Source: Deltaproteobacteria bacterium (lineage in GTDB: Bacteria > Myxococcota_A > JAADFL01). From it: DNA of 43,588 bases. How positions within the stretch are numbered: position 1 is the first letter of the stretch; every line of letters starts with the position of its first letter. Under the pieces are notes generated by a model. It was not told the origin of the DNA. It did no database searches and worked only from the letters and a program-made list of their open reading frames with translations. Of the stretch, positions 239 to 24,915 are shown in pieces. The stretch lies in assembly GCA_013152945.1 (NCBI GenBank), contig JAADFL010000189.1:1-43588 (forward strand), in the 5' to 3' direction. Both the position numbers and the translations under genes were made by a program.

Positions 239-373
239 ACCACAGCATTGCATTACGCGGTTGCTTGAATTGCAGCAATAAATTAGACTTTGTCATTATG
301 TAACTGTATATGGGTGAAAAAAGTAAGAAAAAATAGAATGGCGCAGCAAGACTAAATAACAGGAGTGGATGGC
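239..373 (+). other. AT-rich leader before the first lipoprotein gene
   Basis: AT-rich spacer between the repeat and the first gene. It should hold the promoter, but I see no hexamer pair good enough to call. AGGAG at 361-365 is the ribosome binding site that sets the start at 374. Confidence 0.4.
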
Positions 374-3364
374 ATGGAAAAATCCAGTTTGCTTGGCTCG
401 GTTGGCATGTTGTTCGTGGTGGCGTTTGTTTCCTTCACGACATGGTCCGGTTGCTCCTTAATGGTAGATCCCGCCTCGGAGCAAGGATTCAATTGCGGCA
501 AGGACGACTTTTGCCCCAATGGATTCGTGTGCAAGCAGGGAAAGTGCGTCAAGGGCCAGGCAGGCGACACTGACACAGACACGGATATTGACACTGATAT
601 CGATATTGACATTGATACGGACATTGATACTGACATTGATACTGATATTGACATTGATACTGATATTGACACCGATACTGATATTGACACCGATACTGAT
701 ATTGACACCGATATCGACACTGATATCGACACCGATACCGATATCGACACCGATACTGATACCGATACAAGACCCGGTGACCTTGGAAAACCATGCCAGG
801 CAGATGGTGAATGCGTTTCCGGTCTTTGCATCAAGTATCCAACCAAGCTCAAGGGATATTGCTCCGGGGATTGCATGCAAGACATTGATTGCAGTGATGA
901 CCCGAGTTCATGGACTTGTTGGTTGGAGGAACCTGGTACAGACGGGTCAGGCCTCTGCTTACTCAAAACCCAGCCCTCGTGCCAGGACGATAACCTTTGC
1001 GGGAAATCCTGTAAAGAAGACTCTGATTGCCCGTCTGAAAACGGGTTTGCAGGAAAATGCATAACACCCAACCAGGACACGATAGGGTACTGTTCGTATC
1101 CGTGCCAGCCAATGCGGCCGGGATGCGGGGAACACATGACTTGCCTGGACTCGCAGGTGAACAGCTTGCTGGACGTGCCCAGATGCGTATTCACCGGCGA
1201 TGCTTGCTACTCTCCCACATGTCCTTCGGACGAGACGTGCGCACCGGCCCTGAATACAAGTCCTGGTTCAGGGGATCCAATTGAAAGAATAGATTTCAGG
1301 TGCCTGCCCGAAAAGGGAGCCTTGGACTTCATGCAGTCATGTTCTGACAATGGTGCGCCGATCGATACCTGCTCCACCCGGTGGTGCGTGGAAGAACCAC
1401 AGGGTAGTGGCAAGGGATACTGCACCATGCCTTGTAGCAACGATGAGGACTGCTCGTTTCCAAAAGGCTCGCTTGCGGCACATTGTTCTCCGCACACCGT
1501 GGACATGTTCGGAATGACGGCGCCGTACGAATTCTGCGACAAGAACCAGGAGTGTTCTTCTGACTCGGAATGTCAAATCGTGGACTACGCGTGCTGGCTC
1601 TCATGGGAGGACGACATTGACGGCGACGGGTTCGGTGACGATCCCGTGGGCCGTTGCCGGCCCAGGAATCCGTCGTCCACAAAGAAGGTCGGCGACCTGG
1701 ACTGCAGCGATACCGATCCCTGCCCGACCAACATGTGCCTGCCTCTCTATCCGACAGAGGGAACCAACTTCTGCTCCGCCAAGTGCATAGGCGACAGCGA
1801 CTGTCCCACAGGCATGAGGTGCGAATATACAGAACTCCGGACTCCTGCCGGAAACGGTATGATAGCCGCGGCCAAGCTCTGCTCAATCGTGAAGGATTGC
1901 TCGACCGGCCAGGACTGCCAAGCAATGGGCAAGGTGTGCGGAGTATTCGGTGCAGAAGAGAGAACAACCTGTATTCAGCCCGAGGGCAAGGAAGCGGGAC
2001 AGAACTGCGATCCCGGCGTAACCAGTGATTGTGCATCCAACATCTGCCTGGGCCCGTGGGGAACGAACCTCGATTACAAGTGTGCCGCGACCTGTTCAAC
2101 TGATACCGATTGCGCCCCGAGCCGGCATTGTATTCATCCGCAGCCTGACGCGCCTTGGCTCAAGATTTGCGCAGACTCGAACCCCTGCCAACTCGACTCG
2201 GAGTGCCTGGGAACCGAGCACTGCGCAGAAGAGTATTACTGTGCCCCGGGCCCAAGAGTATTTACCCCCGAGTACAACTTGTGCAATCCGGACGCCGACA
2301 CGTGCGAGCAAGGCACGTCGTGCACGGCATTCAAAGACGCCAACGGTGATTACCACGAGCCATTGTGCCTGAAGCCTTGTAGCGGGAATGCAGACTGCAA
2401 GACCTGGTACTCCTGCGTGGAACTTCCGGACCAGCCAGGCGTCAAAAAGTGCTTGCTCGACACGTTCTATACCTCGGGGAATTCATGTAATGCCTGGCTC
2501 GTGTCTGACGGCGATCACTGCGTGAGCAAAAAAAAGAACGCCCTGGATTACGGCTATGCCTGTGCAATAGACGAAAACTGCAAGAGCGGCCTCGCGTGCA
2601 GGGACATGTGGCAGGGCGTGAAGGCGTGCCTCAAGACTTGCGCCACTACGCAAGATTGCACAAACCTCGGGACTGACATCTCGTGTTCACGGTCGTTGTG
2701 CCGGCCCGGAGAAGGAGCAGGCACCTGGCCCGACGAATGCACCGGCACCGCGATGTGCGATACAAACAATATGTGCAGCACTCATCTCTTTCCAGAAATG
2801 ACCGGTATTACGAAATGTTATAAAAAAGGACATCCGGGCTATGCATGCGATGCAGGTTTTAATATGATAAAGAGCAACGCCGGCTTGCCCGTATGCCTGG
2901 AAAACTCTGATACCCTGGCATTCGACTTCTCTACCCAGTATGTGACCGATCCGCAAACCACGCCGCCGAGCACCGCCATTAATCCGCCAATCACGGTGCA
3001 CACCAGCCAAGGAGACAAGAAACTGAATGCGGTACAGTCATTGGTAGGAAAGCTGGACACATACAGCCACGAGGCGGTCGAGTTGCTTTTCCTTGATTTA
3101 TCAAGTAATCCCACCTTGTTGCTGGCCTGTGTATTCCAAAGGCCGGGAACAGACTTAAATGGCACTTACACGATAGGAAACGACATGATAAGTGCACCGG
3201 TGGAATGTGGTTTACAGTTCTTCACACAAGAAAACGGTTCAACGCTGGAGGGCGTTGCAACCAGCGGCACGCTCACGATCAACAGCTTCGACTCGAATCA
3301 AAAAACTTACTCCGGCCACATCGAAGTGTCCCTGGCAAAGGAGATACTCAAATCCGGTTCCTGA
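374..3364 (+). CDS. Large Cys-rich lipoprotein with Asp-Thr/Asp-Ile tract
   Basis: Predicted surface or periplasmic lipoprotein of 996 residues, function unknown. The ATG at 374 is preferred over the in-frame GTG at 365 because AGGAG (361-365) lies 8 nt before the ATG. The signal peptide ends at a lipobox-like WSGC with Cys27 as lipid anchor. A short Cys-rich unit (about 40-60) is followed by an Asp-Thr/Asp-Ile tract at 65-132, then many repeated units with spaced cysteines of the form C-x-x-D-x-D-C...G-x-x-C...C through about residue 840. The last 150 residues lack this pattern and look like a separate beta-rich domain. The acidic tract may bind Ca2+ or act as a stalk (inference). Its design matches the lipoprotein at 20692-24915. 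Convergent with the penicillin-binding protein gene, 51 nt apart. Confidence 0.85.
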   Translation: MEKSSLLGSVGMLFVVAFVSFTTWSGCSLMVDPASEQGFNCGKDDFCPNGFVCKQGKCVKGQAGDTDTDTDIDTDIDIDIDTDIDTDIDTDIDIDTDIDTDTDIDTDTDIDTDIDTDIDTDTDIDTDTDTDTRPGDLGKPCQADGECVSGLCIKYPTKLKGYCSGDCMQDIDCSDDPSSWTCWLEEPGTDGSGLCLLKTQPSCQDDNLCGKSCKEDSDCPSENGFAGKCITPNQDTIGYCSYPCQPMRPGCGEHMTCLDSQVNSLLDVPRCVFTGDACYSPTCPSDETCAPALNTSPGSGDPIERIDFRCLPEKGALDFMQSCSDNGAPIDTCSTRWCVEEPQGSGKGYCTMPCSNDEDCSFPKGSLAAHCSPHTVDMFGMTAPYEFCDKNQECSSDSECQIVDYACWLSWEDDIDGDGFGDDPVGRCRPRNPSSTKKVGDLDCSDTDPCPTNMCLPLYPTEGTNFCSAKCIGDSDCPTGMRCEYTELRTPAGNGMIAAAKLCSIVKDCSTGQDCQAMGKVCGVFGAEERTTCIQPEGKEAGQNCDPGVTSDCASNICLGPWGTNLDYKCAATCSTDTDCAPSRHCIHPQPDAPWLKICADSNPCQLDSECLGTEHCAEEYYCAPGPRVFTPEYNLCNPDADTCEQGTSCTAFKDANGDYHEPLCLKPCSGNADCKTWYSCVELPDQPGVKKCLLDTFYTSGNSCNAWLVSDGDHCVSKKKNALDYGYACAIDENCKSGLACRDMWQGVKACLKTCATTQDCTNLGTDISCSRSLCRPGEGAGTWPDECTGTAMCDTNNMCSTHLFPEMTGITKCYKKGHPGYACDAGFNMIKSNAGLPVCLENSDTLAFDFSTQYVTDPQTTPPSTAINPPITVHTSQGDKKLNAVQSLVGKLDTYSHEAVELLFLDLSSNPTLLLACVFQRPGTDLNGTYTIGNDMISAPVECGLQFFTQENGSTLEGVATSGTLTINSFDSNQKTYSGHIEVSLAKEILKSGS
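566..769 (+). repeat. Low-complexity GAY-ACN/ATH codon repeat (Asp-Thr/Ile)
   Basis: In-frame hexanucleotide-type repeat encoding alternating Asp with Thr or Ile (residues 65-132). Codons vary (gacact, gatatt, gatacc), so the repeat is more conserved in protein than in DNA. It creates long spurious open frames on both strands. Confidence 0.9.
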
Positions 3365-7683: not shown

Positions 7684-8355
7684 ATGGAATATGTTGAAAG
7701 ACGAATATTGCATTTATCAATATTGACTGCTCTTTTGTTGGCAGCCGGATGGCTGGGATGCAAGACAGAGCCGAAAACACCGCCACCTGAATGTGCAACA
7801 GATGCGGACTGTCCCCAGGGCAAGGCGTGTGAAGGTGGAAAATGCGTTGTAAAGGCGCCGCCACCCCCGGAATGCACCGTGGATTCGGACTGTCCCGAGG
7901 GGAAACAATGCAAATCCGGCAAGTGTGAACTCATTCCGGTTGCCAAGAAAGCAGAATGTATAACCGATGCAGACTGTGCTCCCGGCATGGCGTGCAAAGA
8001 CGAGAAATGTGTTCCCAGACCCGATTGTGAACTTGAAACAGTGTATTTTGATTTCGATGATTACACCATAAGGCCGGATATGAAGGATGTTTTGGAAAGA
8101 GATGCGGAATGCCTGAAAAACAGGCCTGACTACAAGGTGACTGTCGAAGGAAACTGCGATGAAAGGGGGACCGAGGAGTACAACCTTGCCTTGGGCGAAA
8201 AAAGAGCAAGGGCGGTCGTGGATTTCCTTAAAGACCTTGGTATCGATCAATCCAGGTTGGACTTTATCTCGTACGGCGAAGCAAGACCGGCCGATCCGGG
8301 ACACAACGACGCCGCATGGGCGAAAAACAGACGTTGCGACTTTTCGAAGAAGTAA
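7684..8355 (+). CDS. Pal-like OmpA-domain lipoprotein with three Cys-rich repeats
   Basis: Peptidoglycan-associated lipoprotein type protein, 223 residues, expected to tie the outer membrane to peptidoglycan. Start ATG 7684 with GGAGGG at 7672-7677. Signal peptide with lipobox-like WLGC (Cys26). Residues about 37-112 hold three similar Cys-rich units (C-x-x-D-x-D-C...G-x-x-C...C). The C-terminal OmpA/Pal domain begins near VYFDFDDYTIRPD and includes VEGNCDERGTEEYNLALGE, ARAVVDFLKDLGI and the final NRRCDF. In ordinary Pal the linker is short and Ala/Pro-rich, so the Cys-rich insertion is unusual and matches units in the lipoprotein at 374-3364. A CpoB-like gene follows, as in tol-pal loci, but tolQRAB is not in the window. 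Confidence 0.92.
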   Translation: MEYVERRILHLSILTALLLAAGWLGCKTEPKTPPPECATDADCPQGKACEGGKCVVKAPPPPECTVDSDCPEGKQCKSGKCELIPVAKKAECITDADCAPGMACKDEKCVPRPDCELETVYFDFDDYTIRPDMKDVLERDAECLKNRPDYKVTVEGNCDERGTEEYNLALGEKRARAVVDFLKDLGIDQSRLDFISYGEARPADPGHNDAAWAKNRRCDFSKK

Positions 8356-8392
8356 TACAGGCCGAGAGAAGCCTGATAAAGAACCCTATCAA

Positions 8393-9304
8393 GTGACGCG
8401 TTCAACCTATCAAACCGGCTTCCTGCTTTCACTGATAACAGTATTCCTTTTTCAGCAAGGCTGTCTCATGACAAAGGAAGAAGGAAGGCGACTGGAAGCA
8501 CGATTGAAACACCAGGGCATGCTTGTGCAGGAGCTAAAGGAAACACAACGGCTGGCTCAGAAAAATCTTCGCCATTCCATCAAGGAGGTATTCAAGGAGG
8601 TCAAGGATAGAGACAAGAAGAACATAAAGCACAAATCCGACTTGGTGATGGAGATCCAGGATCTTGAAAAGGAAATTCTGAAGCTGAACGGCAAGGCTGA
8701 AGAAAGCAACTTCAAGCGCGGCAAACTGCAAAAGGAACTCGAAGAAGACCAGGAAGTTATTGCCGCCAGGTTCGCAGATGTGGAGGCAAGGCTTCAGAAC
8801 CTGGAGAAAGCTTTCAAGAAAATCCAGGAGTCCTATACTCAAGACGAGAAAAACTCCAAAGGAAAACTGCTGGTAAAGGCGAATGAACCCAAATCCGCGG
8901 AAGACCGTTACGGGCAAGCATTGGCGGTCTTCAAGCTGGGAGACCAGACCCTGGCCAGGAAGATGTTCCAGGACTTTCTGAAGGACTATCCCAGGCATAA
9001 ACTAGCGGGTAATGCCCAGTACTGGCTTGCAGAAACCTACTATGAGTCCAAGGACTACAAGAAGGCCATACTGGAATTCCAGAAGATCCGGGACAACTAC
9101 AAGAAGACAGACAAGCGCGACGATGCATTGTTGAAACTCGGGTACTGTTTCGCAGCATTGGGGTTGAAAAAAGAGGCAAAGATATTCTTGAAAGAACTGA
9201 TTTCAAAATTTCCCCGTTCAGACTTGAGGAGAGCTGCCAAGGCCAAGTTGAAGCAACTCAGGGGCACAAGAAAGCGATCCAGGCAAAGGCGTAAAATGCA
9301 CTAG
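8393..9304 (+). CDS. CpoB/YbgF-like coiled-coil TPR protein
   Basis: Periplasmic protein of the Tol-Pal system, 303 residues. In Enterobacteria CpoB links Tol-Pal constriction to PBP1B activity. The open frame extends back into the pal-like gene, but GTG 8393 is chosen because it begins 38 nt after the pal stop and directly precedes a hydrophobic signal ending in FQQGC, so it may be lipidated. Residues about 27-160 are a long charged coiled coil. The C-terminal half holds three TPR units: AEDRYGQALAVFKLGDQTLA, NAQYWLAETYYESKDYKKAI and DALLKLGYCFAALGLKKEAK, the classic YbgF C-terminal signature. The Shine-Dalgarno is weak, so the exact start is uncertain. Confidence 0.88.
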   Translation: MTRSTYQTGFLLSLITVFLFQQGCLMTKEEGRRLEARLKHQGMLVQELKETQRLAQKNLRHSIKEVFKEVKDRDKKNIKHKSDLVMEIQDLEKEILKLNGKAEESNFKRGKLQKELEEDQEVIAARFADVEARLQNLEKAFKKIQESYTQDEKNSKGKLLVKANEPKSAEDRYGQALAVFKLGDQTLARKMFQDFLKDYPRHKLAGNAQYWLAETYYESKDYKKAILEFQKIRDNYKKTDKRDDALLKLGYCFAALGLKKEAKIFLKELISKFPRSDLRRAAKAKLKQLRGTRKRSRQRRKMH

Positions 9305-9434: not shown

Positions 9435-9466
9435 ATGAAAGGACCACCACAAAAAAGGACTGGAAC

Positions 9467-11002
9467 ATGAGAAAAGAAGAAGCAAGATTTATTTTCCTGT
9501 CATTGGCCATGGGCCTGGCGTTGACTTGGCCTGGCTGCAACCATGGAGGCAACACTGGAAACCAGGCCTTGTTGCAGAAAAAAAAACCGGCTCTTACAAT
9601 ATTCTATACAGGCAACCTCTGGGGTGAACTCGCCCCTTGTGGGTGAGGAGCCCACAAGCTGGGCGGTCTTGCCCGGCAAGCCGGCATTATAAAAAAATCA
9701 CTGGCCAAGACTCCCTCGTTACTGGCCTTGAGTGGAGATATGTTCACGAGGTATACAAGGCACAGGCTGACCGAAGAAGCAATAAAGGCCAAGGCCCATC
9801 TCATTCTCGGCGTATATTCCAAGCTCGGGGCATGTTGCCTGGTCCCAGGTGAAAGAGACATGGCGTTGGGTACGGATGTACTAAAACAAGTAGCAAGAGA
9901 TGAACATATAACCCTGCTCGCAGCCAACATAGTGACCATCGATGGCGGCAAGCCTGCTTTCAAGGCCTCGTTGCTGAAAAAAGTGGGCTCCACCAATATC
10001 GGCATCATCGGTATCGTGGGTAAGAAAGCGGGCTATGACAGTGAAATGCTTTCCAAAGCAGGCTTGAAGATAACCGACCCATCCCAGGCTGCGAAACGAG
10101 AGGCTGCTGTTTTGAAATCAAAGGGCGCCAAACTCATATTGGCCATCTCCCACCTTGGTTTCGGCGAGGAAGATATGGTGCTAAAGTCTGCGCCGGACAT
10201 CACATTCTTGTTAGGCAGTCACCAGGGCAGGAGACTCACGAGAAAAATAGAAAGGCCCGGAGCCGGACCTGCATGGGTGGCTGATGCCGGTGTTCGCGGG
10301 CAGTACATGGGCCGCATCGACCTGTACCCGGCTGCAAACGGGGAACCCTTTAAACACCTTGAAGACGGGGGCGTGGAAGGAAGACTCAAAAAGGAAATCG
10401 CGAGGCAGGAAAAAACCCTGGAGCGCGAAAAGGCACGGCTGAACAGTCAAGGTGATGTGAAAAAATCCATGGAACAGGAGAAAAGGCGAAGAACTGCCAG
10501 GATCGAATCCCTGGAGCGCAGGATTTCCAGCCTTGAAAAAGAACTTCCGGGATTAAAGAAGGACAGGACCAAGTCAGCTCTTTTTGCCAGGAAGAGTACG
10601 TACCTAAAGCGGTACAAGGAACAAATCCAATCCTTGAAAAAGGCTCCGTTCCCGACTGAAGAAGAAACCAAGAAACGCATCGAAATCCGGCGAAATTCCA
10701 TAAAACAATCTATAGACAGGATGACCAAACGACTAAATGAAAAAAAGAAAGAGCTGAACAAATTGAAGCCGAACGATCCAAATAAGGCTCACTTTATAAG
10801 CAAGGCGATTCCCTTGGACTCCTCGGTCAAGCAGGATCAGAAAATCGCATCCAAGATCAAGGCATTCAAAGCATCAGGGATTCAGGAAAAAGCCATATCC
10901 ACCAAACCGGTGTTACAACGAAAGCAACCCCTTATAAAGCCTGTAATGCCTCTTCATATTCCCCTTGAGCCGAAACACCCGCTGCCGCTGATAAAAAGAT
11001 AG
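9467..11002 (+). CDS. Candidate selenoprotein: metallophosphatase-fold lipoprotein, UGA (Sec) at codon 60
   Basis: Reading from ATG 9467 (AGGA 7 nt upstream) gives 511 residues if the TGA at 9644-9646 is read as selenocysteine. Signal peptide with lipobox-like WPGC (Cys24). The segment YTGNLWGELAPCG-U-G, then KLGGLARQAG and LLALSGDMF, matches the start of 5-prime-nucleotidase-like proteins in which I recall PCGC before GGLARR; the TGA falls on the second Cys, giving a Cys58-x-Sec60 pair. A 7-bp hairpin with a G-starting loop follows 18 nt after TGA. Further fold segments: PGERDMALG, ILAISHLGFGEED and LLGSHQGRRL, where the usual metal ligands are partly changed (GERD for GNHE, SHQ for HxH), so phosphatase activity is doubtful. 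Residues about 310-440 are a highly charged coiled coil. The alternative is a nonsense-mutated gene, but the frame on both sides is intact. Confidence 0.82.
9644..9677 (+). promoter_or_regulatory. Sec UGA codon with bacterial SECIS-like hairpin
   Basis: TGA at 9644-9646. Stem 9658-9664 pairs with 9671-9677 (7 bp, one G-T), apical loop GGTCTT at 9665-9670. The loop starts with G and lies 18 nt after the TGA. As I recall the bacterial SECIS rules, the loop should sit 16-37 nt from UGA with a G in its first two positions; both are met. Confidence 0.75.
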
Positions 11003-11070: not shown

Positions 11071-11160
11071 GGCACGTGCCGTCAATTCATGCCAATTGCT
11101 TATTATTGTTGGTGATTCCTGCCTCCGTCCCCTGTTTACCCTGCCTCCGTCCCCTGTTTA
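11071..11160. repeat. Palindrome and 22-bp-period tandem repeat
   Basis: The gap 11003-11219 has no gene. It holds a perfect 10-bp palindrome GGCACGTGCC (11071-11080) and two identical 21-bp units at 11118-11138 and 11140-11160 (CCTGCCTCCGTCCCCTGTTT plus A), separated by one C. The arrangement resembles a remnant of a REP-like intergenic element; no transposase is nearby. CCTGGAA is also doubled at 11034-11047. Confidence 0.7.
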
Positions 11161-11219
11161 CCCCGTCACGCAAAACAGGCCGCGATTTCCGGGGCGTGTT
11201 GCTGTTCACTCGGAAGTGC

Positions 11220-17537: not shown

Positions 17538-17627
17538 CACCCCATATCATTATTATGACCGTGATTGAATAACTTGAAAATCATTTCTCAAGAGTCTATT
17601 GAATATCATGAACAAGGTGGTTTCACT

Positions 17628-18821
17628 ATGCAGATGGAAAACGCAACCCCCAGGTGCCCGGTCGATCATACCTTGTTGAAATCACTGGTTTTCAATGGCG
17701 TGACACTGGACCAGTGCCCGAATTGCGGCGGGATTTGGTTCGATAGAAACGAACTCGACGAGACAGTACGCCGGCTCATCAGGTTCCCACAGGAGGCAAG
17801 TGCAATCGACGTCCCACTCGGTGAGACACAAGACATAAACGACTTGGAACAGTATCGTTCTCTCTCCTGTCCGCGCTGCAGGGACACCAAGCTGTCTGCC
17901 GGACGTTTTGGCAGAATTTCCAATGTCGTGCTCGACACATGTCCAAGGTGCAGGGGCGTATGGGCTGATCACGGCGAGTTGACCGCACTCGTGGAATTCA
18001 TGCACACACCGGCCGGCACAAACAATTCAAGCGCTTCGATCAATACCAGAAAAATGGGTGAGGCGATTGCATCCGCCGTGAAACAACGCCAGCATTACAA
18101 GGAAATCAAGGAACTCGGCTCTTCGTTGAATCGCCGGATCGGGTTCTTTTGGTTCTTCTTGCCAAAGATAATCATACCCATCTCGGCCAGGGCGGGACAA
18201 TACGAGTTTCCCCTGATGACATCCACGCTGATAGTGCTGAACGTGATTTTTCTTTCGGCCCTGGAGCTTTTTTCCACCAAGGCCGGATTCGATCCGGGAT
18301 TCCTGGGTATGATTCCCTCCAGGATCTTGAACGGTGAAAGGCTTTATACGATATTGACATCCATGTTTACCCATGCAGGTTGGTTCCACCTGTTCGGAAA
18401 CATGCTGTACTTGTGGATATTCTCCGTGCCTGTCGAGGATGTGTTCGGACTAAAGAAGTTCATATCAATGTATCTTGCAGGCGGTATCACAGCAGAATTG
18501 GTTTTCCTGGCGTTGAACCCGCAAAGCATGATTCCCCTGGTAGGTGCAAGCGGCGCTGTATCATGCATCATGGGTGTGTATATAGTCAGGTTTCCTTCAT
18601 CCACTGTAAAGACATTTGTAATCAACCGGGTCCTGGACATTCCGGCATGGATATACATAAGCACATGGATCTTCTACCAATTCCTGCTGGCATTTCTTGT
18701 GAAAACCATGGGTGCCTGCTCTACGACAGCATTCAGCGCCCATGTCGGCGGTTTTGCGACAGGAGTCCTGCTCGCCTATTTGAATAAAAACCGGCCGGTT
18801 GCAACCAAAGGCTGTGTGTGA
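17628..18821 (+). CDS. Rhomboid-family intramembrane protease with two N-terminal zinc ribbons
   Basis: 397 residues from ATG 17628, chosen because AGGTGG lies 8 nt upstream; the frame extends to a TTG at 17565 without such a site. Two TFIIB-type zinc ribbons: C10..C30-x-x-C33 (the first CxxC is replaced by C-P-V-D-H, so Asp13 or His14 may be a ligand) and C81-x-x-C84..C105-x-x-C108. After a linker come about six membrane segments with the rhomboid signature: HLFGNMLYLWIF, Ser308 in GASGAVSCIMG and His372 in SAHVGGF, the catalytic pair. Expected to cleave membrane substrates within the bilayer. The ribbons on the cytoplasmic side may bind a partner or sense zinc (inference). Confidence 0.92.
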   Translation: MQMENATPRCPVDHTLLKSLVFNGVTLDQCPNCGGIWFDRNELDETVRRLIRFPQEASAIDVPLGETQDINDLEQYRSLSCPRCRDTKLSAGRFGRISNVVLDTCPRCRGVWADHGELTALVEFMHTPAGTNNSSASINTRKMGEAIASAVKQRQHYKEIKELGSSLNRRIGFFWFFLPKIIIPISARAGQYEFPLMTSTLIVLNVIFLSALELFSTKAGFDPGFLGMIPSRILNGERLYTILTSMFTHAGWFHLFGNMLYLWIFSVPVEDVFGLKKFISMYLAGGITAELVFLALNPQSMIPLVGASGAVSCIMGVYIVRFPSSTVKTFVINRVLDIPAWIYISTWIFYQFLLAFLVKTMGACSTTAFSAHVGGFATGVLLAYLNKNRPVATKGCV

Positions 18822-20691: not shown

Positions 20692-23600
20692 ATGAAATCA
20701 AGAGGGACATTACTATTTTTTATTCTTTCTTTGGTGTTGGTGTCAGCCCCTTACGGTTGTTCCAAAAACAATGATAACAACGGAAACGGGGATACGGACA
20801 CGGATACGGACACGGATACGGACACGGATACGGACACGGACACGGATACGGACACGGATACGGACATGGACACGGATACGGATACGGACACAAGCAAGTA
20901 CCACGGTGTCTTATCCGACCAGGAGTTGAACTTCGATGCCTGGATGGACATGTCGTTCAACGACGTGCTTGCAAGGCTGGATATGGACCAGGACCTGGAC
21001 GTTGACGGTGGTGACGTAACCGCTGTTGAGAAGTGTATCCAGGACGGCGCCGATGCACAGTCACATCCCGAGTGTGACGTGCTTCAGGACGAAGTGATAG
21101 ACGTCAAGGATCAACTGATCATGAGGATAATGGCAGGCACATCCTCTGCACCTTCAGAAGAAACACTCAAGCAGGTGAGCGACGGGTTCGCAGCCTATGC
21201 AAGAGGCGACATAGCCCTCGACGGAATGTTCGAGTCCTTCTCCGACTATGACGGCGACGGAGACAGGGACAAGGATGATGTGAGCATGTTCTCCAAGGTG
21301 CTGGCCGACGACCCGGTACACAAGCTCGACGTGAACAAGGACGGAAGGTTGGACAACCTCGATGCCATGTACCTGGCAAGGACACTGGCCGGTGCGTACT
21401 TCGGAGGCCCACATCCAACAACAGACGCAAACCAGGACGGCGACGTAAACGACCTGGACGTGCTGATGATATCCGGAATCGCTATGACCGCAGGCTCATT
21501 CACACCCGGCATGCTGGACCGTAACAAAGACGGCAGGATCGATGAGAACGACTATTGTTACATCTCGAGCCACGAACTTTCTTTCAACCCGTACGGATTG
21601 CTCATGCCCGATGATCAGGCCGGCACGGCATTCACTGCAGCCAGACCCGATATACTGGTGTGCAGGGCGGACAACAAGAGCATCCTGGATCACCTGGGGC
21701 GCATCGATACAAAGACCGTATTATCGGTAAGACCTCGGAATCTTTACCTGGAACCGATCGACTCGATTCCGGCCGGGTACTCGCCTTTGAACCAGGCCGA
21801 CATTGCCGAAGGTGACAAGCTTTACAAGGTCTCGACCAAGCAAGGCGCCTTGAAATTGGCATCGATCGACCTGCCCGATCCGTACGAGCTTGACGGCTCC
21901 GGCGACATAAGCTTGAACTTCGAGGGCCCGCAACCTTCGGACAGCTCGTGGTTACTGGTTCCGGGCTATGCGATACGGCTTCAGGCCGGGGGACCGCCGC
22001 CATCTGAAACAGGGAACCAGGGCATTGCACCGGCGCCTTCGAGACCCGGCTGGTGGAACATCAACAAGGACATATCAGACCTCACGCTCAAGCCCGGCGA
22101 GGCAGACCAGGTCAAGGATCTCCACGCAAAGCTGGACAAGCTGAAGGCCTCCGTGGATGCGGTGGTAGGCAGTAGGTGCCCGTGTGACCTCGACCTAGGA
22201 ACCAAGGCAGAGCTTATAAGGGAGCTGGCGATGCTCAAGCATTGCCTCGAAACAGTGGAAAAGGCGGTGAAAGAAAGACTGGACCACGAAATGGACGCCC
22301 TTGTAACGAACCAGGTGGCGAGCTGCTCGGCAAACAACGACGCTGCATTGGCCTGGATAAACGTGGAGTACAGTCAAATAATGGCAGCATGGGCCAGCGT
22401 GGCTTTCCTGGTAGTGGATACTGCAGAAGACTTGGCGGAAGGCGGCCCGACACAAGCCTTGATAGGCGCGACTGTGAACCTCGGCATTGAGATTTATAAC
22501 GACTCCAAGCCGGACGAGTTCATGAAGGCCGGAAACGATGCAATGGAATCGAATATGCAGACCATTGTCGACAATGGCGTGAACAACAAGATAGGAGACG
22601 TGGTCAAGAGTATGCCCGACGATGTCAAGGCGCTGAACAAGTGGCTCGATGGACGTTCGGTCGAGGATGGGCTGAAAGACCTGTTCAACGATTTTGTAAA
22701 GAACAACAAGGATCTCCCGCCCAGCGAACTGCTGACCAAGTTCAAGGATTCTTTCGGCTCCAAGCTCAGGGACCTGTCAAAGGCAGGTGCCGAGGCAGGG
22801 GTAAAGGCATTTGTACAAGCTATTCCCACCATGCTTGCAGAGGCTTACAGGAACAGTGCGTTCCAAGCCTTGTTCAAGTCCATTGTGACATCCAGGGTGT
22901 ACTACATTTCCACTTTGAAGGTGGGCCGCTGGGCGGCCATCGCCAGGGAGGCCGTGCTTGCCGGGGAGGCGGTGGACTCGTTGAGCAAGAAGCTGCACGA
23001 GAAGTTCCAGGAGGGTGGTTGCGACATAACCGAGAGCGATGCAGATCCCTGTTACCTGGATTACAAGACCGCGGTGGACAAGCTGTTCCAGGAGTTCGAC
23101 AAGGACATGGGGCTTGCAGACGATGCAATGAAAGAGGCGATGGGGAAGTTTTCGGAGAATACCAAGGACGATTGCCTGGACGACAAACCTTTCGATGAAC
23201 TTCTAAAAGCAGATGCCAGGGTACTCGAGGCATCCCAGGTCTTGAAGAACGCCTCTCTGAAGGGGACCGGTACCAAGGAGTTCGAAAACGCAGCGAGCGA
23301 TTACCAGAGGGCACTCGAGGCACGCAAGAAGGCTGCCAATGACTTTCTTCTTGCATGCAGCTTCTCCGATGCCTTGAACGGCGAGGTAATCCCGGGTGAA
23401 CTGATTACCGGCCTTGTGGAAGCCGAAAAGCAGAGGCAACAGGCATACGATGATTTGGTGGCAGGCCTTCAAAATGCGAGGCAGAAATACAAGACGTGCT
23501 GCGCCAACAACGGTACGTCCGAACCATGCTGGCCTGAAATTTCCTTGCTTGATACAGACCCGTGGGGAGTGGTAAGCGGGTGCCTGTCATGCTTGCCCGA

Positions 23601-24915
23601 AATCACGGCGTTCTGCTGTGACGGTGAAACGGTATGCGAGACGGCCGAGGCCTGGATGTGCTGCATTGAGGGTCAGAAGTGCGACAAGGACCGGGGCTGC
23701 GTGGATTCGTGCGGTGACGGCGTTTGCGATGGGGGTGACATTTTCCAGGAGAACTGCTCGACCTGCCCGGGTGACTGTCCGTGTGCCGAGGGAACAGAGT
23801 GCCAGAACGGCAAGTGCGAACCAAAGTCTCCATTCAAACGGATGCTTCCAACGGTTGGGCAGGCAGAGGGAGCGGTGTTCACACGCGACCAGGCACCGTG
23901 GCCGAATCTTCCTTTGATTGCTGTTTGCGGAACAGCCGCACAGGTAGGCTCGACAATATTGAATGCAGCGACAGGCGATCCCGTGGGCGGTATTGCTTCC
24001 GGAAATCTCTTGAATATGGTCTGCTTCTCCAGCATCTTTACCGAAATTCCGGGTCCAAAGGGCCCGCCTCCCATAGGTGACCCTGTGGGTGCGCCGGGCT
24101 CGGGCGCCTGGACGTGGGTGTACGGAGGACCCAATGGATTGGGTTATGCCACATACGACATGAGTAAACCGGAGTGGATACAAATGATGTCTTCTTTATT
24201 CAGGGGGCACATCACGGACCTGGTGCTGCTCGAGGACGCTGATCCCAAGTACATCCTTTTCACCGTGTACCAGTTCACGGACGGATCCAATTTCCTGAGC
24301 ACTGCCGTGTCCCGGCCCGATGGCGGTCTCTTCGGCCAGCCCACGTGGACGCACGACTACAACTTTGCTTACATGCAAGACGACCCGGACGTGAACGGAA
24401 AACTCATAAGCGCCTGGGCAAAGGACCATTCGTCCAAAGCTTCCATCGCCATAACCGATCAAGGAGACCTGTGGTGGTTTCAGGGTTGGCAGAGCATTGG
24501 TGGCACCAAGACACAGGTTGCCACGGGAATCGGCTCGGACCTGCGCAGGATCCGTTGTCTCGAAGGCCATTGCGGAATAACCGACTATGGCTCGGACGTG
24601 CTAACGCTGGTGGACTGGAGCTCCACTGACAAGGCACCCGAGATAAAGGGTACGGTTAAGGCCGGAGACGGGGCAGTGGGCCTGGACATCCGCAAGGACG
24701 GAGACAACTGGCTGTTCCTCACGACCGGTTACAATGACGGCACCTATACTCTGACCACGGTTGCCGCAGACTACTCCGTGGTATCCAATGCAACCGACCA
24801 GGTGGATCCGGCCTGTAAGAAGCCCGGCCATGCCACGTTCTATACTGATTACAGCGTGCGTTACCTTGCCGTGAGCTGCGAGGAGAGCGGCAACGTGTTC
24901 ATTCTTCCATACTAA
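20692..24915 (+). CDS. 1407-residue lipoprotein with Asp-Thr tract, EF-hand/dockerin-like repeats and Cys-rich motif
   Basis: Predicted surface lipoprotein, unknown function. GAGGAG precedes ATG 20692. Lipobox-like APYGC gives Cys23. An Asp-Thr tract (34-67) is followed by five or six Ca-binding-loop-like segments at about 95-290: DMDQDLDVDGGD, DYDGDGDRDKDD, DVNKDGRLDNLD, DANQDGDVNDLD and DRNKDGRIDEND, in dockerin-like pairs. Residues about 480-930 are largely helical with long coiled-coil stretches. A Cys-rich block near 940-1045 includes CGDGVCDGGDIFQENCSTCP, a pattern common in Myxococcota surface proteins. The last 350 residues look beta-rich, perhaps a propeller. No cohesin-type partner is in the window, so a cellulosome role is not implied; Ca-dependent rigidity is more likely (inference). 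Only 13 nt separate it from the convergent Bat operon end. Confidence 0.85.
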   Translation: MKSRGTLLFFILSLVLVSAPYGCSKNNDNNGNGDTDTDTDTDTDTDTDTDTDTDTDTDMDTDTDTDTSKYHGVLSDQELNFDAWMDMSFNDVLARLDMDQDLDVDGGDVTAVEKCIQDGADAQSHPECDVLQDEVIDVKDQLIMRIMAGTSSAPSEETLKQVSDGFAAYARGDIALDGMFESFSDYDGDGDRDKDDVSMFSKVLADDPVHKLDVNKDGRLDNLDAMYLARTLAGAYFGGPHPTTDANQDGDVNDLDVLMISGIAMTAGSFTPGMLDRNKDGRIDENDYCYISSHELSFNPYGLLMPDDQAGTAFTAARPDILVCRADNKSILDHLGRIDTKTVLSVRPRNLYLEPIDSIPAGYSPLNQADIAEGDKLYKVSTKQGALKLASIDLPDPYELDGSGDISLNFEGPQPSDSSWLLVPGYAIRLQAGGPPPSETGNQGIAPAPSRPGWWNINKDISDLTLKPGEADQVKDLHAKLDKLKASVDAVVGSRCPCDLDLGTKAELIRELAMLKHCLETVEKAVKERLDHEMDALVTNQVASCSANNDAALAWINVEYSQIMAAWASVAFLVVDTAEDLAEGGPTQALIGATVNLGIEIYNDSKPDEFMKAGNDAMESNMQTIVDNGVNNKIGDVVKSMPDDVKALNKWLDGRSVEDGLKDLFNDFVKNNKDLPPSELLTKFKDSFGSKLRDLSKAGAEAGVKAFVQAIPTMLAEAYRNSAFQALFKSIVTSRVYYISTLKVGRWAAIAREAVLAGEAVDSLSKKLHEKFQEGGCDITESDADPCYLDYKTAVDKLFQEFDKDMGLADDAMKEAMGKFSENTKDDCLDDKPFDELLKADARVLEASQVLKNASLKGTGTKEFENAASDYQRALEARKKAANDFLLACSFSDALNGEVIPGELITGLVEAEKQRQQAYDDLVAGLQNARQKYKTCCANNGTSEPCWPEISLLDTDPWGVVSGCLSCLPEITAFCCDGETVCETAEAWMCCIEGQKCDKDRGCVDSCGDGVCDGGDIFQENCSTCPGDCPCAEGTECQNGKCEPKSPFKRMLPTVGQAEGAVFTRDQAPWPNLPLIAVCGTAAQVGSTILNAATGDPVGGIASGNLLNMVCFSSIFTEIPGPKGPPPIGDPVGAPGSGAWTWVYGGPNGLGYATYDMSKPEWIQMMSSLFRGHITDLVLLEDADPKYILFTVYQFTDGSNFLSTAVSRPDGGLFGQPTWTHDYNFAYMQDDPDVNGKLISAWAKDHSSKASIAITDQGDLWWFQGWQSIGGTKTQVATGIGSDLRRIRCLEGHCGITDYGSDVLTLVDWSSTDKAPEIKGTVKAGDGAVGLDIRKDGDNWLFLTTGYNDGTYTLTTVAADYSVVSNATDQVDPACKKPGHATFYTDYSVRYLAVSCEESGNVFILPY
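20791..20892 (+). repeat. GATACGGACACG-type tandem repeat (Asp-Thr codons)
   Basis: In-frame hexamer/dodecamer repeat encoding residues 34-67. Unlike the tract at 566-769 the DNA is nearly uniform, so length change by slippage is plausible; steps of 6 nt would keep the frame. Confidence 0.9.

Follow-up and report, generated by a model that had tools for sequence, protein, structure and literature searches.

A forward-strand gene extending from position 9467 to position 11002 very probably encodes a selenoprotein of the UshA-like family, in which the UGA codon at position 9644 is read as selenocysteine (Sec). The analyzed stretch of 43,588 nucleotides, hereafter the window, is one whole contig (G000:C189) of a deltaproteobacterial draft assembly (4.84 Mb, 218 contigs, estimated 94% complete). 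The gene was delimited on the basis of its reading frame, of homology upstream and downstream of the TGA, and of a structure model, and would specify 511 residues with Sec at position 60. The frame is open from the ATG at 9467 to a TAG ending at 11002, and its sole interruption is the TGA at 9644-9646, which corresponds to residue 60 in the context ...NLWGELAPCG-U-GAHKLGGLARQAG..., also readable as ...GELAPCG-U-GAHKLGGLARQ.... A probable ribosome binding site (AAGGA, within 9451-9466 on the same strand) is located 7 nucleotides before the ATG. Alignment of homologues points to a signal peptide encoded by positions 9467-9538 of the same strand, with Cys24 as the probable lipidation site. The corresponding lipobox, WPGC, is non-canonical, and Cys24 aligned with a Cys residue in 26 of the 79 aligned sequences. 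With this nuance, the description of the product as a metallophosphatase-fold lipoprotein in the initial annotation, which was made from the sequence alone, is supported.

In the absence of recoding, standard ORF calling identified a 424-aa sequence starting at TTG 9728 as the longest ORF in this frame, in agreement with the prediction that ordinary gene calling would start at 9728 and lose the N-terminus of the protein. The initial annotation had also claimed that the frame contained a single TGA and that both flanks of this codon formed one protein. Translation bore out the former claim, and the latter was verified by homologues that aligned both upstream (residues 40-59) and downstream of the TGA. 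Because homology reaches upstream of the TGA, the N-terminal segment is part of the protein.

Related genes were detected by a translated search in 77 of 111 genomes from the same phylum, and many of the top matches contained one TGA. To collect Sec and Cys forms, 377 genomes were scanned with a sequence pattern, and the hits were filtered by homology; the pattern for the LGGL stretch fixed amino acids only, leaving the codons free, and the resulting counts are those of the loci examined within one phylum. The collection comprised 72 family members. At the column of residue 60, TGA was found in 58 genes, including that of the window, and TGC or TGT in 14, every aligned family member having Cys or Sec at this position. 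The occurrence of TGA or of a Cys codon at the homologous column forms the basis for assigning the in-frame TGA (9644-9646, forward strand) as Sec60 of a Cys58-Gly-Sec60 motif. The proposal that the UGA occupied a Cys position was confirmed, since the alignment placed TGA or TGC/TGT at exactly that codon, and the recommended search for TGA at this site in other genomes was positive for 57 other genes. The best identities of the window protein to its relatives were only 28-31%. A narrow TGA pattern search returned one true relative (L091, contig G096:C71) and five chance matches devoid of homology, and no relatives were found by a contig scan of genomes using the window protein as the query.

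The TGA is followed by a predicted bacterial SECIS hairpin, GCUGGGC-GGUCUU-GCCCGGC (9658-9677, forward strand), the loop of which (9665-9670) starts 18 nucleotides after the UGA. Bacterial SECIS elements are defined by a loop of 3 to 9 nucleotides with a G in one of the first two positions, a stem of 4 to 16 bp, a spacing of 16 to 37 nucleotides, and a minimum free energy of at most -7.5 kcal/mol (PMC13188914). The window hairpin satisfies each of these rules, with a 7-bp stem including one G-U pair, a 6-nucleotide loop beginning with G, a spacing of 18 nucleotides, and a minimum free energy of -18.9 kcal/mol; the hairpin had been correctly described in the initial annotation. The SECIS element of E. 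coli fdhF likewise displays GGUCU in the apical loop 18 nucleotides after the UGA, its sequence having been confirmed by an exact match in E. coli genomes, but has a different stem sequence. An Rfam search of the window returned no matches.

When only the window hairpin was shuffled by dinucleotides, z was -1.2; since this null does not suit a GC-rich hairpin inside a coding sequence, it was discarded in favor of synonymous-codon nulls computed for all homologues. Stems were scored in both the 5- and 6-nucleotide loop registers; with a fixed 6-nucleotide loop, one group paired poorly since its loop has 5 nucleotides. For the window gene alone, the combination of a GGUCU loop and a stem of 7 bp or more was rare among synonymous shuffles (P = 0.0054). 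The GGUCU loop was present in 56 of the 58 Sec forms versus 28% expected, and the mean stem of these forms was 6.3 bp versus 1.8 ± 0.18 expected. In contrast, the stem of the 14 Cys forms was at the null level (1.86 versus 1.52 ± 0.32 expected), and only four of them had the GGUCU loop. These comparisons, made at the sequence level, indicate that the conservation of loop and stem in the Sec forms far exceeds what synonymous coding explains, which is not the case for the Cys forms. The standard deviations overstate significance because the sequences are mutually related, and a more solid argument comes from the difference between Sec and Cys forms.

The genome encodes a tRNASec (74.8 bits, anticodon TCA) together with selA, selB, and selD, the four components scoring above curated cut-offs, as the initial annotation had advised checking. 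The selD gene (L054, contig G000:C94) itself encodes Sec, having one in-frame TGA within a SelD motif CAGU. selA, selB, and the remaining UshA-like paralogues of the genome were free of in-frame stops, indicating that UGA is not generally read through. A reassigned genetic code in which UGA would be read everywhere was rejected, since other genes of the genome are devoid of in-frame TGA. Together, the Sec/Cys column, the conserved SECIS element, and the presence of selA, selB, selC, and selD make Sec insertion very likely. SelB in complex with Sec-tRNASec would bind the hairpin just past UGA 9644 and insert Sec at residue 60, and the product would be an exported UshA-like PCG(U/C) selenoprotein, probably lipid-anchored.

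Two other explanations of the TGA were considered. A sequencing or assembly error at a TGC or TGT codon, which would make the gene an ordinary Cys homologue, is conceivable in a draft genome of 218 contigs for a family in which Cys homologues exist. It is highly improbable, as 57 other genes also have TGA at this column, the genome has a complete Sec machinery, and the window gene displays the SECIS loop and stem, which are missing from most Cys forms. Ordinary ORF calling, which yields a 59-codon fragment and the 424-aa ORF from 9728, would suit a pseudogene with a nonsense mutation or a genuine stop followed by a separate gene starting at TTG 9728. The alignment of residues 40-59 with homologues, the 451 codons that are open after the TGA, and the intact RNA signal render this explanation barely credible; with a start at 9728, the protein would also lack its signal peptide, the initial strand and helix of the fold, and the only invariant motif.

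Rather than founding a new selenoprotein family, the window gene belongs, as a diverged member, to a known one. The initial annotation erred on this point by not recognizing an established selenoprotein family. UshA-like CxU selenoproteins (COG0737) were listed in the Global Ocean Sampling selenoproteome in 2008 (PMC2398784), and the family is also catalogued in two reviews (PMC9312934; PMC13188914), the motifs being CxU for the UshA-like family and CxxU for UshA-like family 2 (PMC13188914). Two NCBIfam models cover these proteins. The window protein matched NF041198 (UshA_like_PCGU, equivalog) with 163.4 bits (E = 7e-48), below the cut-off of 275, over profile positions 17-344. The two have in common the PCG(U/C) motif after the first strand and the metallophosphatase domain, but NF041198 additionally includes a C-terminal c554-like tetrahaem region (profile positions about 380-519), whereas the window match ends at position 344. 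No CxxCH motif is present in the window protein. The match to NF049981 (UshA-like (seleno)protein family 2), a short profile of 262 positions, was also below the cut-off (63.0 bits versus 140) and spanned residues 43-288; this family likewise has a metallophosphatase-like domain with Sec, but in a CxxU rather than a CxU motif. A SoxB profile matched weakly (42 bits versus a cut-off of 550), and a Pfam search of the window protein returned no match. Three of 10 relatives scanned passed the NF041198 cut-off, all of them haem-bearing (L010, L025, and L034), whereas the haem-less ones failed. In the literature, we found neither a reported function for the UshA-like selenoprotein family nor relevant work on selenoproteins in Myxococcota.

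The AlphaFold2 model (pLDDT of 86) comprises a 5′-nucleotidase-type metallophosphatase domain (residues about 40-300), a long helical bundle (residues 302-432), and a strand and a helix (residues 442-469) followed by a disordered tail. The best structural matches, covering about 275 residues, were 5′-nucleotidases (Z up to 31.8) and SoxB (Z of 30.1), so that the N-terminal metallophosphatase domain has the 5′-nucleotidase/SoxB fold with Z scores of 30-32. The fold is that of the N-terminal domain of UshA and CD73 (VIA-align Z of 31.8 for 2z1a and 30.3 for E. coli UshA, 1ush), but most metal-site residues are replaced, the Cys-Gly-Sec motif is added, and the C-terminal substrate domain is absent. 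The fold is likewise shared with the SoxB thiosulfohydrolase (2wdc), from which the window protein differs by its motif and metal site. The seven metal-site positions, D-H-D-N-H-H-H in the canonical paralogues of the same genome, are N-W-D-E-H-H-G in the window protein, which does not have the full set of dinuclear metal ligands of a functional 5′-nucleotidase. Among the metal-site residues checked, D91, H229, and H252 are kept, and residual metal binding is therefore possible. Across the family, the metal ligands vary widely, while Pro57, Gly59, and Cys/Sec60 are invariant and Cys58 is nearly so. The Cys-Gly-Sec motif lies a few residues past the former first metal-binding motif.

The loss or variability of the metal ligands, together with the maintenance of Pro-Cys-Gly-Sec, makes a phosphatase role unlikely. 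As judged from these conservation patterns, a redox or binding role of the selenol is likely and is favored over phosphatase activity. Being the polar site that the family conserves, the Cys-Gly-Sec motif probably acts in selenol/selenenyl-sulfide redox chemistry or in the binding of a substrate or a metal, in the periplasm or at the outer membrane. A redox role by itself is reasonably probable; for the CxU pair as such, for which the initial annotation had suggested a redox or metal role, the redox role is put forward as a hypothesis. Two Sec forms, L011 and L078, have the motifs PSGU and PTGU, in which Ser or Thr replaces the first Cys of CxU. The C-U pair is thus not obligatory across the family, and these substitutions argue against an obligatory selenenyl sulfide. 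An alternative, which competes only with the functional part of our interpretation, is that the Sec-containing protein is a metal-dependent phosphohydrolase with Sec as a metal ligand or nucleophile. The 5′-nucleotidase/SoxB fold and the retention of Asp91, His229, and His252 at metal-site positions are in its favor, but the window protein has other residues in place of motif I (D, H), the Asn and His of GNHE, and the last His, PCGU is kept family-wide, and the structural matches span the N-terminal domain only, the substrate-binding C-terminal domain of UshA not being seen. We consider this alternative improbable.

Many relatives carry a cytochrome c554-like tetrahaem domain fused to the metallophosphatase domain, and electrons may therefore pass between Sec and haem. 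MccSep is a multihaem cytochrome c selenoprotein with solved structures. A stand-alone tetrahaem protein is also encoded by the genome of the window (positions 1378-1926 of locus L041, contig G000:C201), and its sequence matches the C-terminal portion of NF041198 (E = 8e-15). Proteins of the haem-less branch could, speculatively, have a cytochrome encoded elsewhere, such as this protein, as a partner, and a shared electron-transfer function of the Sec domain and the tetrahaem protein is plausible. The stand-alone tetrahaem gene shares its contig with selB, at a distance of about 20 kb.

A tree was built from the metallophosphatase domain with the Sec column left out. Here the window protein fell into a moderately supported haem-less clade (SH-aLRT of 83), in which 27 of the 31 rows are Sec forms, and its branch was long (1.39). 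At least six changes between Sec and Cys are required over the whole tree, and some Cys forms were nested within Sec forms. Genomes G043 (L015 and L114) and G213 (L098 and L111) each carry the same haem-less protein in two copies, one with Cys and one with Sec, which group together in the tree. Comparison of the homologue loci revealed no shared gene neighborhood pointing to a pathway beyond close relatives.

Several other features of the window were recorded. A Pal-type OmpA lipoprotein is encoded at 7684-8355, with Cys-rich repeats (DUF7107, Dickkopf_N, and Myxo_Cys_RPT) preceding the OmpA domain; this insertion is unusual and resembles animal modules. The lipoprotein gene is followed by a YbgF/CpoB-like TPR gene (8159-9304). 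Just downstream of the selenoprotein gene, positions 11118-11161 contain a perfect tandem repeat of two copies of the 22-mer CCTGCCTCCGTCCCCTGTTTAC. A predicted protein with TFIIB-type zinc ribbons followed by a rhomboid protease domain is encoded at 17565-18821, and two large ORFs are present at 365-3364 (999 aa, no Pfam match) and 20692-24915 (1407 aa, dockerin match only).

What is new here is modest: a mostly-Sec haem-less branch missed by curated models, and the evidence from residue conservation. Since the curated models miss this branch, its genes are probably annotated, wrongly, as coding for N-terminally truncated proteins. More tentatively, and with a good deal of doubt, an unrecognized haem-less UshA-like subfamily may extend through one phylum, in which a metal-poor scaffold would have been repurposed as a Sec redox partner of a separate tetrahaem cytochrome, Sec being more indispensable than the neighboring Cys. 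The 58 Sec forms and the switches to Cys in one clade reveal the constraint acting on the protein, as PCGU is kept while the phosphatase ligands drift. The UshA-like proteins are a widespread selenoprotein family, and the genes collected here provide concrete, testable candidates for its function.
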